From a virus: a DNA stretch of 63,349 nucleotides. A model generated the notes under the pieces. It made no database searches, was not told the origin of the DNA, and saw only the letters and a program-made list of their open reading frames with translations. How positions within the stretch are numbered: the stretch's first letter is position 1; each line of letters begins with the position of its first letter. The DNA lies in the IMG/VR virus record IMGVR_UViG_3300011115_000278, positions 1-63,349 of that record. The stretch is one strand, 5' to 3'. Positions 11,754 through 33,650 of the stretch are shown piece by piece. The translations under genes and the position numbers were made by a program.

Positions 11754-14553
11754 TTACGTCTCCATCAAAGATGTAGCAGCGTACTGCAATACCGCTAAGC
11801 CCCCCTACGGCTCCCGCACCAATCCGAGTGGGATGGGACTTGCCACCGTGCTTCAGATACCCCGCAGTGGTTAGCCGTGTCAAACTATCTCTAACGTCCA
11901 CCTGCCTGCTAGTAAAGTATTTGCGTAGCTCAGCCACAGGTATGGCAAGCGTCTTGGTGTCAGGGTCGTACCGCATCACCAGTTTGCCTTTGGGGGTCAT
12001 TGCGGGTCTCTCAGGCATGCCACCCTTGGGGGTATATGCAGCTACCATTGCGTTATTGACATTCTCGTTAATAAACGCGCCCAGTGTCTCTTGTGCCACA
12101 GTCATTGGATTGCCAACGCTAGACAAGTTAGACGCAATCGACTCCCGCACAACTCCCAACGCAAACTGATATATACGTGTAATGTCAATGTTAATCAGCC
12201 CAAGCTTGGTTGCAATCAACGCACCGACAAAAGCACACGTCAACAAGCAAGAATAAAAACGGTCGGTCTGGTCTAGGTTCAGCGCCTTGTCCACCTTGGC
12301 TTGCATATCGGCAAGTAGCTTCATTACATGGTCGTGGTTGTCAATAATGTACTGAACGTAGATTGGACCTGCCAAGCCGTAATTAGAATTAAGCTTGCCA
12401 AACGTCTCATCAATCTCAGCTTTAGGTGAACCTGTGTATGCGTGAAACGCAATCTCAAGCACTCGACGAAGCTCACCATCTGCCGTACTCTTAAGATTCT
12501 GCAGGGCATCCACAACAGAAGCGTTGCCTGACGACAAAGTAAAGTTACACCATGTTGTATTGTTTACACGTAGTTTATTACTCTGCGCTTCCATACGGTG
12601 CTTGCCTCGCCCTGAGGTAAACCCATAAGCGTAGTCAGACAAAAGCTCTGGTTTCTCATTGGTGATCTCATCTATGGTGAACGCAATGCTGTTCATCATG
12701 CCAAGCAAGTGCATCTTGGAAGCGTACGTGTCGTCTTGTTTCAGCAGTAGGGTATCAGGGTTGCCAAAGATAGAGTTGACCACCATTTGCGCCGTTGATT
12801 TGCCAGAACCCGACCCGTTATGTTTAAGGTGAACTAAAGCGCCTTTTACGTTTTGCTTGGGGCCAATGAACTTTAGCAAGGGTGAACCAAAGCCCAAGAA
12901 CAACGCCAGTGCATGCGTCTCAAGTCCGGGCCGGTTGTAGAAGTTAGCGATCTTGCTCCACTCTTCCAACGTGCCGGTTGGTTTAAACTGCTCGGCCAGT
13001 TCCCGTGTGCCGCTTGAGGGCGGTGCTAGTTTAGTACCGGCTGCGGTGTATTCCAACTCACCTACGACAAAGCCTAGCCCGTCAGGTGTCCACCCCATTT
13101 GACTGCGTGTTTTGTTCGCAGCGTACTGCGACTGCAGTTTGCGTAGTGTCGAAGCAAAGTAAGCCATGATTGCATCCAAGTGTTTTCCGTAAGCGACTAC
13201 ACCGTTTTTAATCAGCAAGTCGCGCATTTTATCTTTGGTGAACAACGTAGTTACCGGAGCGTAGAACCTACGGATACCGTCTTGCTTCATGTGCAAGTTC
13301 AGACCCACCATCTCGCCTTCACCATTACCGTACTTGTCCGAGTCAAAGAATCTCTCTGTTAGGTATAGGTCGTATGGGTAGATTTCAACGTCCTTCTCCT
13401 CGCCATCGGGCGTACGTTCTTTCTTGTACACGCCGCCGTTAGCGCCCCGAAAGTATGGATAGGGGTACGCCGGTATCGACATGGTAAGTGCCGGTGCCGT
13501 CTCGTCCTTGGGTGTCTCGATGATGTACTGGTCATCCTCAACAACTGCTTGTTCTACAAACTTACCCAACAGAATTGGCGTAGAAATCTTCTGCGGGCAA
13601 CCCTCGCACAAAGATGGGTTATTGTCACGATACCACTCGCATGTATACGGACCTTTGGTCTCAGCGGCTTTAGCTTCGGTAGCCTCTGCCGAGTACTCGG
13701 GATGCCGTTTGGACAGCGTGTGGATAGCCGTAGGGCCATCCTCGCAACGCACAGCGATAGACAACGCACCCCGCCACAACGGTTCTTCTAGCGTATCTGC
13801 GTTCTCAATGGCGTGTTTAATCTGCGCACAGCCGTTACTGTTAATACTACGGATAGCTATACGCTTAAACGAACACTTGGGGTAGTCGCCACCACCGCCA
13901 ATATCTTTTGAGGTCTCGTCCATGCCAAATTGTTTGGCAGCACTCAAGTCCATCGCAGGGGCGGGTAACGGTTCAATAAACTCAGCAAGGGACACAGGCG
14001 TACCCATTGCAATAATCTGTACAGGTCTCGATGTTTCGTTTTTAAAGTTATGGGTGCCGGGTATGCGTAAGATGCGAGCCGCATCCGCAGTCACCGCAGG
14101 GTCAGCAAATAGTTTCTTTTGAGCGCACAAACGCTTCAGTGATTTTGCGTGTCGTACCCACTCGGATACAGGCACGTCTTCGGTCAAAGGCCAATAGACA
14201 TGGAGACCACCACCTGAGTTAACAAGCGTCGGACTCGGGAGCTTTGTGTCAGCAACAAATATGGATAGTGCTTGGGCAGCAGCAGCTTGGTCAGCGTATG
14301 GCTTACCTGTACCGCAGTCTAAATCTAAAAAGAACGACCGTAGAAAGATGGCATTGTCCACCTTACGACCTGAGTCATCTTCAAATGTGGCAAGCGCAAA
14401 ATACGCATCCACGCCTTGAGAATCCATACCTGAGCCGACTGCCTCCACGTCTTCAATCGTCGCTTGGAACGATTGCTTGACAGCGTTTGACCGAATACCA
14501 ACAGTGCAATACATGCCCTGCCTAGGTAATACGGAGTTGAGAAAGTCAGTCAC
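11704..14553 (-). CDS. Bifunctional primase-helicase, 949 aa
   Basis: The N-terminal part looks like an archaeo-eukaryotic primase (AEP) domain. It has DLDCG (residues about 75-79) as the metal-binding DxD, NSGGGLHVYW (about 115-125) with the catalytic-type His, and RILRIPGTHNFK (about 160). A Cys cluster (C-x(9)-C-x2-C near residues 305-320) may bind zinc. The C-terminal half is a superfamily 3 or DUF927-like ATPase with Walker A GSGSGKST near residue 582. It would unwind DNA and lay primers at the phage fork. It is preceded by a hairpin terminator or attenuator at 14572-14607. The polymerase, ssDNA-binding candidate and helicase genes are upstream in the same operon. Confidence 0.85.
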   Translation of the reverse strand: MTDFLNSVLPRQGMYCTVGIRSNAVKQSFQATIEDVEAVGSGMDSQGVDAYFALATFEDDSGRKVDNAIFLRSFFLDLDCGTGKPYADQAAAAQALSIFVADTKLPSPTLVNSGGGLHVYWPLTEDVPVSEWVRHAKSLKRLCAQKKLFADPAVTADAARILRIPGTHNFKNETSRPVQIIAMGTPVSLAEFIEPLPAPAMDLSAAKQFGMDETSKDIGGGGDYPKCSFKRIAIRSINSNGCAQIKHAIENADTLEEPLWRGALSIAVRCEDGPTAIHTLSKRHPEYSAEATEAKAAETKGPYTCEWYRDNNPSLCEGCPQKISTPILLGKFVEQAVVEDDQYIIETPKDETAPALTMSIPAYPYPYFRGANGGVYKKERTPDGEEKDVEIYPYDLYLTERFFDSDKYGNGEGEMVGLNLHMKQDGIRRFYAPVTTLFTKDKMRDLLIKNGVVAYGKHLDAIMAYFASTLRKLQSQYAANKTRSQMGWTPDGLGFVVGELEYTAAGTKLAPPSSGTRELAEQFKPTGTLEEWSKIANFYNRPGLETHALALFLGFGSPLLKFIGPKQNVKGALVHLKHNGSGSGKSTAQMVVNSIFGNPDTLLLKQDDTYASKMHLLGMMNSIAFTIDEITNEKPELLSDYAYGFTSGRGKHRMEAQSNKLRVNNTTWCNFTLSSGNASVVDALQNLKSTADGELRRVLEIAFHAYTGSPKAEIDETFGKLNSNYGLAGPIYVQYIIDNHDHVMKLLADMQAKVDKALNLDQTDRFYSCLLTCAFVGALIATKLGLINIDITRIYQFALGVVRESIASNLSSVGNPMTVAQETLGAFINENVNNAMVAAYTPKGGMPERPAMTPKGKLVMRYDPDTKTLAIPVAELRKYFTSRQVDVRDSLTRLTTAGYLKHGGKSHPTRIGAGAVGGLSGIAVRCYIFDGDVIGIDETAFAQAEASDI

Positions 14554-25241: not shown

Positions 25242-25265
25242 AAAAGTTATAAGGTTATAAGTTTT
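25242..25265 (-). repeat. GTTATAAG tandem element before the 308-aa gene
   Basis: Plus strand AAAA, GTTATAAG, GTTATAAG, TTTT. On the coding strand it reads CTTATAACCTTATAAC and spans the stop codon of the upstream gene. It ends just before the GGAG and ATG of the next gene. Confidence 0.9.
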
Positions 25266-25911: not shown

Positions 25912-25935
25912 AAAAGTTATAAGGTTATAAGTTTT
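25912..25935 (-). repeat. GTTATAAG tandem element before the 122-aa gene
   Basis: AAAA plus two GTTATAAG octamers plus TTTT on the plus strand. It sits between the VWA protein stop and the GGAGAAAACCATG of the next gene. Confidence 0.9.
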
Positions 25936-27121: not shown

Positions 27122-27144
27122 AAAGTTATAAGGTTATAAGTTTT
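27122..27144 (-). repeat. GTTATAAG tandem element before the VWA gene
   Basis: AAA, two GTTATAAG octamers and TTT on the plus strand, between the stop of the 199-aa gene and the GGAGAAAACCATG of the VWA gene. Confidence 0.9.
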
Positions 27145-29922: not shown

Positions 29923-29946
29923 AAAAGTTATAAGGTTATAAGTTTT
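29923..29946 (-). repeat. GTTATAAG tandem element before the 252-aa gene
   Basis: AAAA, two GTTATAAG octamers, TTTT. It overlaps the stop codon of the zinc-ribbon gene and ends next to the GGAG of the 252-aa gene. Confidence 0.9.
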
Positions 29947-30907: not shown

Positions 30908-30930
30908 AAAAGTTATAAGGTTATAAGTTA
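30908..30930 (-). repeat. GTTATAAG tandem element before the 77-aa gene
   Basis: AAA, two GTTATAAG octamers and TTA on the plus strand, covering the stop of the 78-aa gene and ending beside the SD of the next gene. Confidence 0.9.
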
Positions 30931-31190: not shown

Positions 31191-31406
31191 TTAGATAAAG
31201 TCAATAGCGTATTCGTTACCAGCTTCGCTTAGCTGCAGTTCACACAACACGACACTCTTGAGTGCCTGCATCATGCGGTAAACATCAAGCGCTTTAAATT
31301 GATCAGCGTTCTTGATGAATAGTGTGCCGTATGCGAAGTACGCATTGTCGGCAATGTCAGAGTTAACTTCCTCGATTCGTTTTAGTACAACGGTTTCAAG
31401 TCCCAT
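31191..31406 (-). CDS. Small unknown protein, first gene after the structured leader, 71 aa
   Basis: ATG at 31406 (MGLETVVLKRIEEVN) follows GGAGAAACCT and a repeat element. A TTG further upstream is ignored. Helical with a Leu-rich centre. It is the first clear gene of the leftward operon after the promoter at 32160-32188. Confidence 0.6.
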   Translation of the reverse strand: MGLETVVLKRIEEVNSDIADNAYFAYGTLFIKNADQFKALDVYRMMQALKSVVLCELQLSEAGNEYAIDFI

Positions 31407-31416
31407 AGGTTTCTCC

Positions 31417-31440
31417 AAAAGTTATAAGGTTATAGGTTTG
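31417..31440 (-). repeat. GTTATAAG-type element before the first operon gene
   Basis: AAAA, GTTATAAG, GTTATAGG, TTT on the plus strand. One base differs from the tandem consensus. It marks the junction between the structured leader and the first gene. Confidence 0.88.
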
Positions 31441-32060
31441 GTGTGGTACACACCCAAGAGGGGACAGCATCCCCTCCCAGTTGAATACAACTTGTTGACA
31501 CGGCTAATGCCGTGAGTAGTGCGTTATTTGATTTGGCTTTTTTACTACGATAGGGTTTGTCGTTCTGGCATATCCTGACCCTTGTCAGTTCCAGTTCCCA
31601 TGGTTGTCTTAGCGGTAGCATCCCGAGGTGCTACATAAACTCCACTGAGCAGTTTGTATGATTGGCATACAAATACTGCACCCATTTAGGTAGTGTGCGT
31701 ATGCTTTGCATGTTGCTATCGTTTCGTTGACACTAGCCTATTGAAACTACACCACAACATACTGGGGCTAAACCCAACGTCTATTCACCTAGGAAGAAAA
31801 GTAACTTACATCTTTGGCGGTTCAGTATCCTTACTCAACAATAGCCAACTGGCATGGCACTACCTGCCCTTGGGGACTTACAGTAAACTCTCGGAATCAG
31901 GGAAACCCAAGTGAATGGGATATGAAACACGCATAAGAGGTGCGGTGGCTATTGAGGCATCGGGATACGACCAACTCTTGTATGAACTGGACACTAATCT
32001 GTATGGCTTCTGCAATTGAAGCAGCGACGGCTCGAAGGTATGTGCATCGTATGTGGGAGG
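31441..32060 (-). ncRNA. Large structured leader RNA, candidate new ncRNA
   Basis: About 620 nt without a convincing gene, downstream of the leftward promoter. Complementary arms that can pair: 31440-31445 with 31449-31454; 31458-31463 with 31471-31476; 31499-31504 with 31509-31514; 31565-31568 with 31591-31594 enclosing 31575-31579 with 31584-31588; 31615-31620 with 31629-31634. Further arms: 31649-31660 with 31666-31679 (2-nt bulge); 31687-31696 with 31730-31740 (one bulge); 31839-31847 with 31946-31954 (9 bp, long range); 32006-32010 with 32018-32022. Minus strand is preferred because of the promoter. Size and phage setting recall GOLLD and ROOL RNAs, but no sequence match is claimed. Confidence 0.6.
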
Positions 32061-32083
32061 AAAGTTATAAGGTTATAACTTTA
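32061..32083 (-). repeat. GTTATAAG-type element in the leader
   Basis: AAAGTTATAAGGTTATAACT then TTA on the plus strand, a dyad-symmetric variant, followed by another TTATAAG. It lies between the boxA-like site and the structured RNA. Confidence 0.88.
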
Positions 32084-32112
32084 TAAGATACACAAAAACC
32101 TAACTAATAAAT

Positions 32113-32123
32113 TGTTAAAGAAC
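32113..32123 (-). promoter_or_regulatory. boxA-like antitermination site
   Basis: The minus strand reads GTTCTTTAACA, continuing AATTTATTAG. The bacterial rRNA leader boxA is GCTCTTTAACAATTTATCAG, so the match is close. It lies about 30 nt downstream of the predicted transcription start. BoxA RNA recruits NusB and S10, making RNA polymerase resistant to terminators. Terminators at 17.8 and 14.6 kb in the same transcript give it a purpose. Confidence 0.6.
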
Positions 32124-32127
32124 TAAA

Positions 32128-32151
32128 CAAGCCGAGGCGTTACTCGACTTG
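32128..32151 (-). promoter_or_regulatory. 5' leader hairpin before boxA
   Basis: On the minus strand CAAGTCGAG pairs with CTCGGCTTG (9 bp, one U-G) around a 6-nt loop. The U-G pair works only in the minus-strand transcript. It begins at the predicted 5' end of the RNA, so it may protect the transcript or act with boxA. Confidence 0.6.
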
Positions 32152-32159
32152 ATAAATCA

Positions 32160-32188
32160 ATTATAACAGATTATAGGTATGTTGTCAA
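32160..32188 (-). promoter_or_regulatory. Consensus sigma70 promoter of the leftward operon
   Basis: Minus strand TTGACA (32188-32183), 17-bp spacer, TATAAT (32165-32160): both hexamers match consensus exactly. The predicted start is near 32153. It drives the leader RNA and the early and replication genes with host RNA polymerase. It lies immediately after the end of the HTH gene. Confidence 0.88.
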
Positions 32189-32193
32189 GCGTT

Positions 32194-32682
32194 TTATAAT
32201 CCATCTACCTCATCCCAATCCTTCAAAATTTCCGCCTTGTGTGCCACGGCTTCGGGGTTTCGCTTGGGGTCGTTCTTCTTTCCCTGTGCGACGATCTGAT
32301 GCACTCTGATCTCTGAGATGCCGTAGTCTTGGGCGAGTTGTTTTCTTTTGACCCCGAGCATCGCTCTGCGGTATACATCTGCATCTCGTTCCGCCAAAAG
32401 TTTCTTCCTTGGTATGGTGGCTTCGACTCGTGGGGCTTTCTCGTCTAATACTTTGATGATGGCTTTTTTGATTGCAGAGTGTTGACTCATGCCATTGGCT
32501 ACTGCATAACCTTGGGCGATGTTGAGGTGTTTGGTTCCAATCTTGAGCCAGAGTTGTAGTGCTGCAACTGCAGCCCCTTCTAAGCCATCTTCGTGGGTTT
32601 GTGCCAGATCGTCTGCAACGCTGAGTGGAAGTTCAATGGTGAGGGAATGGGTTTGGAAGCTTGCGGTGGTGGAGTCAGTCAT
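32194..32682 (-). CDS. Helix-turn-helix regulator candidate, 162 aa
   Basis: C-terminal RKQLAQDYGISEIRVHQIVA (residues about 113-132) is a helix-turn-helix of the Mor or sigma region 4 type, with Lys-rich flanks. The N-terminal half is helical, with a beta start that resembles a ribbon-helix-helix or dimerisation domain. CAAGGACTT precedes the ATG. It is flanked by the main leftward promoter on one side and the palindrome cluster on the other. It is therefore the best candidate to bind GTTACnnnGTAAC or the GTTATAAG element. That is inference. Confidence 0.7.
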   Translation of the reverse strand: MTDSTTASFQTHSLTIELPLSVADDLAQTHEDGLEGAAVAALQLWLKIGTKHLNIAQGYAVANGMSQHSAIKKAIIKVLDEKAPRVEATIPRKKLLAERDADVYRRAMLGVKRKQLAQDYGISEIRVHQIVAQGKKNDPKRNPEAVAHKAEILKDWDEVDGL

Positions 32683-33414: not shown

Positions 33415-33650
33415 GGTAAACCCTAGGGTTTAGAAATACATTGAAAAGAACTTGTCATTGATGTATGCGAGCGCATCTTTTTCATGACGGAATGAGCGTT
33501 TTTCCCCATCGGAAAATTCAACCTTCCATCGGTTAACCAATGGATCATTGTAGATTTTCCATGTGATAGTGTCACATTCGGGTTTTGCCTTTGAATAGTG
33601 CATGTATTTGTTCATTTTTAAACCCCTAGGGTTTCCCCTAGGGTTTCCGT
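33415..33650. repeat. AAACCCTAGGGTTT palindromes flanking the 61-aa gene
   Basis: AAACCCTAGGGTTT overlaps the gene's stop codon (33418-33431). Two further CCCTAGGG copies lie in its leader (33623-33648), one of which supplies the ribosome binding site. The 61-aa gene is thus bracketed by the same palindrome. Confidence 0.7.
33430..33615 (-). CDS. Small unknown protein, 61 aa
   Basis: ATG at 33615 (MNKYMHYSKAKPECD) preceded by AGGGG with a 7-nt spacer. A longer frame would overlap the upstream gene. Single beta-rich domain with WKIYNDPLVNRWKVEFSDGE and a helix, resembling small phage DNA-mimic or binding folds. No assignment. Terminator directly downstream. Confidence 0.6.
   Translation of the reverse strand: MNKYMHYSKAKPECDTITWKIYNDPLVNRWKVEFSDGEKRSFRHEKDALAYINDKFFSMYF

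Follow-up and report, generated by a model that had tools for sequence, protein, structure and literature searches.

What is encoded by the roughly 620 nt that separate a consensus promoter from its first gene, at the head of a long set of phage genes? The window, meaning the whole stretch of DNA analysed here, is IMG/VR virus record IMGVR_UViG_3300011115_000278 (63,349 bases). Its minus strand holds most genes between about 11.7 and 32 kb, including primase-like, helicase and DNA polymerase A genes; the plus strand carries the terminase and portal genes, past 35 kb. A preliminary description had placed a large folded non-coding leader between a promoter and the first gene, possibly a relative of the phage RNAs GOLLD and ROOL or a new class. 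The leader is real, and lies at the head of the leftward (minus-strand) genes, between the promoter at 32188-32160 and the ATG at 31406 (Table 1); its strand, its boxA and an insert of about 210 nt had been missed. Sequence comparison shows that this region is a conserved, structured non-coding RNA, which would form the first ~750 nt of the main early transcript. It is a new RNA class and a novel combination of two known ideas.

The early leader and its homologues

We infer that the leader is transcribed from the consensus promoter, with a start expected at about 32156-32152. Promoter-like sequence was found at the corresponding place in the homologues. The gene upstream of the promoter has a weak PHROG match (phrog_836, 'late transcriptional activator', E 2e-5), and either its relatives or other ORFs precede the RNA in homologues. 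The first early gene differs between phages, while the position of the RNA is constant all the same. No intrinsic terminator was predicted between the core of the RNA and the first gene. The early operon behind the leader spans about 14-20 kb, and the first strong predicted terminator on the minus strand is at 17813-17791. This hairpin and another at 14607-14582 (minus), each with 10 pairs and a T run, are strong, terminator-like and located within the leftward genes. A second perfect consensus promoter, TTGACA-16-TATAAT, lies at the end of the helicase gene (16218-16191, minus). GC hairpins are present between the leftward and rightward genes at 33624-33643 (plus) and 33411-33394 (minus), the latter followed by a T run.

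Homologues were collected starting from the gene upstream of the promoter, which led to seven IMG/VR contigs with a leader at the same place. The set was enlarged by pattern scans for the P3 and P8 regions, by loci around a downstream zinc-ribbon gene, by one genome scan and by iterated nhmmer profiles. Profile searches placed the RNA in 37 non-identical sequences, several of them near-identical to one another: the window, 35 other IMG/VR records and one contig from a bacterial MAG. The scan of genome contigs gave 15 loci, and the RNA was present only in L136. This contig of 4.4 kb had been assigned by binning to a Rhodobacteraceae MAG, which does not establish the host. No match was obtained when the window RNA and two divergent members were compared by blastn with 50,697 phage records, when the window RNA was compared with plasmids, or when the downstream zinc-ribbon protein was compared with phages by tblastn; the RNA was absent from every sequenced isolate phage searched. 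No second full copy was found within the window, where a covariance model (R2) gave only weak extra matches at 2.4 and 7.5-7.7 kb.

Rfam models gave no match at gathering score across the whole window, no family down to E ≤ 5 in 31300-32250, and, when six diverse members were searched at E ≤ 0.5, nothing that overlapped the RNA. Three weak Rfam matches at homologue loci all lay outside the RNA, and ARAGORN reported no tRNA or tmRNA. Kinship to GOLLD, ROOL, HEARO, OLE or any other Rfam family was not found at these thresholds. Of the two initial proposals, a relative of GOLLD or ROOL is not supported, the genomic setting also being different, and the new class was borne out by covarying structure in 37 sequences with neither a conserved frame nor an Rfam family. 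A literature search found no account of such an RNA, and a description in a subscription journal or preprint may exist.

Structure of the core

The core consists of two halves. In the first, P1 closes P2 and an exchangeable module, P3 abuts P1, P4 abuts P3, and the variable P5 lies inside P4. In the second, P8 closes a junction holding P7, an optional P9, and P10. At least seven helices are conserved (P1-P4, P7, P8 and P10).

Table 1. Features of the leader region, in order of the minus strand
Feature	Position	Strand	Remarks
Gene upstream of promoter, putative transcription regulator	32194..32682	minus	PHROG match
Early promoter	32160..32188	minus	TTGACA-17-TATAAT, TG before -10; 12/12 sigma-70 consensus
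HP1	32128..32151	minus	hairpin at transcript 5′ end, directly before boxA (boxB position in rrn leaders)
boxA	32104..32123	minus	GTTCTTTAACAATTTATTAG; core GTTCTTTAACA at 32113-32123
Conserved stretch past boxA	32087..32104	minus	GTTAGGTTTTTGTGTATC; boxC position in rrn; conserved in close homologues
20-nt palindrome/hairpin	32062..32081	minus	AAGTTATAACCTTATAACTT; hairpin in leader; sequence differs between phages
P1 5′ strand and P2	32010..32029	minus	P1 CGTC 32026-32029; P2 hairpin CTGC 32021-32024/GCAG 32010-32013
Exchangeable module	31790..32000	minus	between P2 and P1 3′ strand; ~210-nt insert in window
9-bp helix in insert	31946-31954/31839-31847	minus	CAATAGCCA/TGGCTATTG
P1 3′ strand and P3	31762..31781	minus	P1 GACG 31778-31781, then, gapless, P3 TTGGG 31773-31777/CCCAG 31762-31766
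P4	31709..31761	minus	TATGTTG 31755-31761/CAACATG 31709-31715
P5, variable, within P4	31743-31747/31721-31725	minus	GTTTC/GAAAC; inspection only
P8, closing helix	31544..31694	minus	P8a ACTAC 31690-31694/GTAGT 31544-31548; P8b GGG 31681-31683/CCC 31553-31555
P7 hairpin	31649..31679	minus	base covaries; apical part length-variable, poorly aligned
P9 hairpin	31615..31634	minus	one subtype only
P10	31565..31594	minus	outer CTGG/CCAG, inner CTGAC/GTCAG; conserved internal loop, GATATG on 3′ side
3′ hairpins	31440..31514	minus	31499-31514, 31479-31492, 31456-31478, 31440-31454; conserved in close subtype
First early gene	31191..31406	minus	71 codons; ATG at 31406, GGAG ribosome site upstream

The named helices were scored on two ordinary MAFFT alignments that were not fitted to structure. 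Counting cells, which are not independent events, 98.0% were paired in P1-P4 (33 sequences) compared with 82.2% (sd 0.9) in shuffles, and 94 had changed on both sides compared with 23.5 (sd 5.9); in P7-P10 (27 sequences) 79.6% were paired compared with 66.4%, and 106 were double-changed compared with 40.4. None of 500 shuffles reached the observed pairing or double changes of P1-P4. Covariation was 0.446 in P1-P4 and 0.301 in P7-P10, against 0.153 and 0.118 in the respective shuffles. When partners were slid (by 1-3 columns in P1-P4), pairing fell to 30-48% in P1-P4 and 31-45% in P7-P10, in a control that leans toward the helices because they were first drawn on the window sequence. RNAalifold, given no structure, found the same helices on the same alignments, and a covariance model of P7-P10 (R1) recovered two members that had been left out, L136 (E=2e-18) and L156 (E=3e-13). 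In an unsupervised G-test on 19 sequences, shared ancestry dominated the covariation signal, and the result was not counted as proof.

Most core helices are backed by compensatory changes. P1 and P2 were paired in 100% of cells, with both sides changed in five pairs. P3 is rewritten in other phages as TACCG/CGGTA, TCCCG/CGGGG or TGCTG/CAGCA, and 98.2% of its cells were paired; for P4 the figure was 95.6%, with both sides changed in four pairs. P8a and P8b were paired in 91% and 99% of cells, both sides having changed in six pairs, and L165 has GCGG/CCGC at P8b in place of GGG/CCC. In P10, both sides changed in eight of nine pairs. P9 was paired in 95% of cells in the 10 sequences that have it, with little variation. 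Judged from the number and kind of these helix replacements, chance is untenable as the source of the pairing.

Covariation in homologous leaders, the check proposed with the preliminary description, supports structure well beyond shuffles, though not every helix as originally drawn. The '12-bp hairpin with a 2-nt bulge' corresponds to P7, whose base covaries. A 'three-way-like' unit at 31687-31740 gave way to other pairings: the relatives support P4 (31755-31761/31709-31715) instead, and the strand 31690-31694 pairs with 31544-31548 as P8a. The 9-bp helix whose arms lie 100 nt from each other is present, and by inspection it is compensated in L045 (CAATAGTT/AACTATTG), but it belongs to an insert that only some relatives share.

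This insert occupies the exchangeable module, which ranges from ~30 to ~280 nt and is of three types among the homologues. The ~210-nt type is common to L024, L033, L036 and L037 and has diverged in L045. The 3′ hairpins are likewise replaced by other hairpins in other subtypes. In L028 (about 12560-12620), L053 and L136, inserts just before P8 fold into long hairpins capped by GNRA-type loops (GGCGGAACGCC, GGCGCAACGCC), which hints at tertiary contacts on the periphery. Within P8, CUAAAU/UAUC may resemble a GNRA-loop/receptor.

On the minus strand, G-U pairs outnumbered A-C by 90 to 21, which fits this strand being the functional RNA. Single-sequence folding energy beat shuffles only modestly (z -2.57 minus, -2.47 plus) and would by itself have proved nothing; the proof is comparative. 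No conserved open frame was found: ORFs in the core of the relatives did not generally exceed the lengths seen in shuffled sequence, and members differ in core length by non-multiples of 3. The original view that no gene covers the leader was thus upheld.

boxA and the 5′ elements

In essentially all members the order is promoter, hairpin or hairpins, boxA, palindromic hairpin, core, subtype-specific 3′ hairpins and first early gene. HP1 forms in most homologues with differing arm sequences, and in many a second hairpin, HP1b, lies between HP1 and boxA. The sequence GTTCTTTAACA is the sole perfect match in the window to GYTCTTTAANA, the gamma-proteobacterial boxA consensus (PMC5725501), which may not be that of the host. 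boxA is perfect in 29 of the 37 members and has one mismatch in seven; L125 has no clear boxA. Among shuffled leaders, about 0.1% contained a perfect one. In L014 the run TCTTTAACAATTTATCAG is identical over 18 consecutive bases to the E. coli rrnB leader, which likewise has a hairpin a few bases ahead of boxA.

In rrn operons, a leader-trailer helix arises from the pairing of boxC with a trailer (PMC10250234). Here, most members showed no consistent duplex beyond that of shuffles, in a test that is confounded by palindromes and that covered all but the last members, and the RNA was therefore not filed as an rrn leader.

The palindrome AAGTTATAACCTTATAACTT occurs in 12 copies with ≤2 mismatches between 23431 and 33228 of the window, for example at 25244-25263, 25914-25933, 27123-27142, 29925-29944, 30910-30929, 31419-31438 and 32062-32081, and several copies sit just upstream of early-gene ribosome sites. 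Related phages each have a version of their own, repeated together at multiple sites; the pattern suggests a DNA operator, or an RNA hairpin, whose recognition changes in concert. A different hairpin motif, CCACCACCUAC...GGGGGCAC, is found before boxA and again as a core insert in divergent members (HP1b of L094 and L090, the P9 region of L099 and L102, and in L156 and L125), which looks like repeated use of a single hairpin type at different sites.

Two related leaders, L098 (1450-1600) and L117 (200-420), have promoter, hairpin and boxA with the zinc-ribbon gene downstream, and no core. boxA and core are thus separate modules, and boxA function does not need the core. In L104 (2350-2700) and L108 (1450-1900), leaders that lack the large RNA contain two boxA-like sites in tandem.

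Possible functions and comparison with known systems

What might an ornate RNA do behind such a signal? boxA is necessary and sufficient for formation of the rrn antitermination complex (PMC10250234). Most likely, host NusB-S10 and the other Nus factors would assemble on boxA of the nascent RNA and render the polymerase Rho-resistant, allowing it to finish the untranslated RNA of ~600 nt and the long early operon. An untranslated leader of this length would otherwise be exposed to Rho; use of the host rrn complex by the phage is the simplest reading. The core would fold under the Nus complex and, as a piece of the leader, would influence in cis how the early operon is transcribed or expressed, comparably to HK022 put RNA, which acts on polymerase in cis (PMC9378689). 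The cis role is the weakest step. The missing leader-trailer helix and the boxA leaders without core also count against the scheme, and we give the whole of it, a new structured RNA heading the main early transcript, made in the manner of rRNA, protected from Rho and acting in cis, about an even chance.

That the leader always lies in the same place is no proof of action in cis, because a processed trans-acting RNA would look identical. The core could be a stable scaffold, RNP or ribozyme of the GOLLD/ROOL/OLE kind, cut from the early transcript, with boxA merely guaranteeing that the untranslated RNA is completed. The ornate modular architecture, the conserved unpaired nucleotides, the exchangeable peripheral modules round a constant core, as in large RNAs of defined three-dimensional shape, and the lack of the core in some related boxA leaders all fit such a molecule. 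The core is nevertheless always found heading the early operon, with no promoter or terminator of its own and no known processing site; GOLLD and ROOL, by contrast, often occur close to tRNAs (PMC7567579). We regard a trans-acting RNA as a tentative second choice, somewhat less probable than action in cis.

A riboswitch or autoregulatory element that senses a ligand or protein and controls the first early genes is unlikely: the 5′ untranslated position and conserved internal loops would suit it, but the first gene varies between phages, no terminator is seen between core and gene, and the 3′ hairpins are not kept between subtypes. Still more doubtful is a decoy role, in which the abundant leader would titrate away NusB-S10 and so stop the host from transcribing its rRNA; the near-perfect boxA behind a consensus promoter would suit it, but a decoy would have no need of the ornate core, and antitermination already explains a boxA in cis heading an operon. 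That the structure works as single-stranded DNA, for example in a replication origin, is highly improbable, for although covariation alone does not tell RNA from DNA, the transcribed strand shows the G-U excess and the element sits between promoter/boxA and ribosome site.

Returning to the rRNA-like reading, a folded RNA directly behind an rRNA transcription signal suggests that phages may have copied the host strategy for transcribing rRNA. With a little less confidence than in the cis scheme, somewhat short of even, we propose that the phage has redirected the rRNA programme (strong promoter, boxB-like hairpin, boxA, and a Nus complex that chaperones folding) toward making its own large RNA machine at the very start of infection, which would either modify the polymerase in cis or be active as a free RNA particle.

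Large structured RNAs of unknown function are rare, and for few of them is there any hint of how they are produced. Here an ornate RNA is tied to an rRNA-type boxA, always at the point where phage early transcription begins. The class offers a direct test of boxA antitermination as a general route for transcribing and folding long non-coding RNA, and of whether phages take over polymerase through nascent RNA. With the alignments and covariance models, further members can be searched for.

Among known systems, GOLLD and ROOL are also large, ornate, phage-borne and of unknown function, and together with OLE they form homo-oligomeric RNA assemblies (PMC12286853). No covariance model relates the present RNA to them, and its setting, an early-operon 5′ end behind boxA, with no tRNAs, is different. 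HK022 put RNA resembles it, by description and not by sequence, as structured nascent RNA heading phage early transcription; put acts alone, without a Nus site, the nascent RNA itself binding polymerase and suppressing pausing and termination. The put RNA is also much smaller. Lambda-type nut sites are similar in that a phage early transcript carries boxA close to its start. In lambda nut the hairpin comes after boxA, whereas here it comes before, and here a large RNA lies downstream. The rrn leader differs in that the present RNA is phage-borne, is not rRNA, is followed by an mRNA operon and has no consistent leader-trailer helix; the two share a hairpin a few nucleotides before a boxA of perfect consensus near the transcript start, and a long structured untranslated RNA downstream of it.
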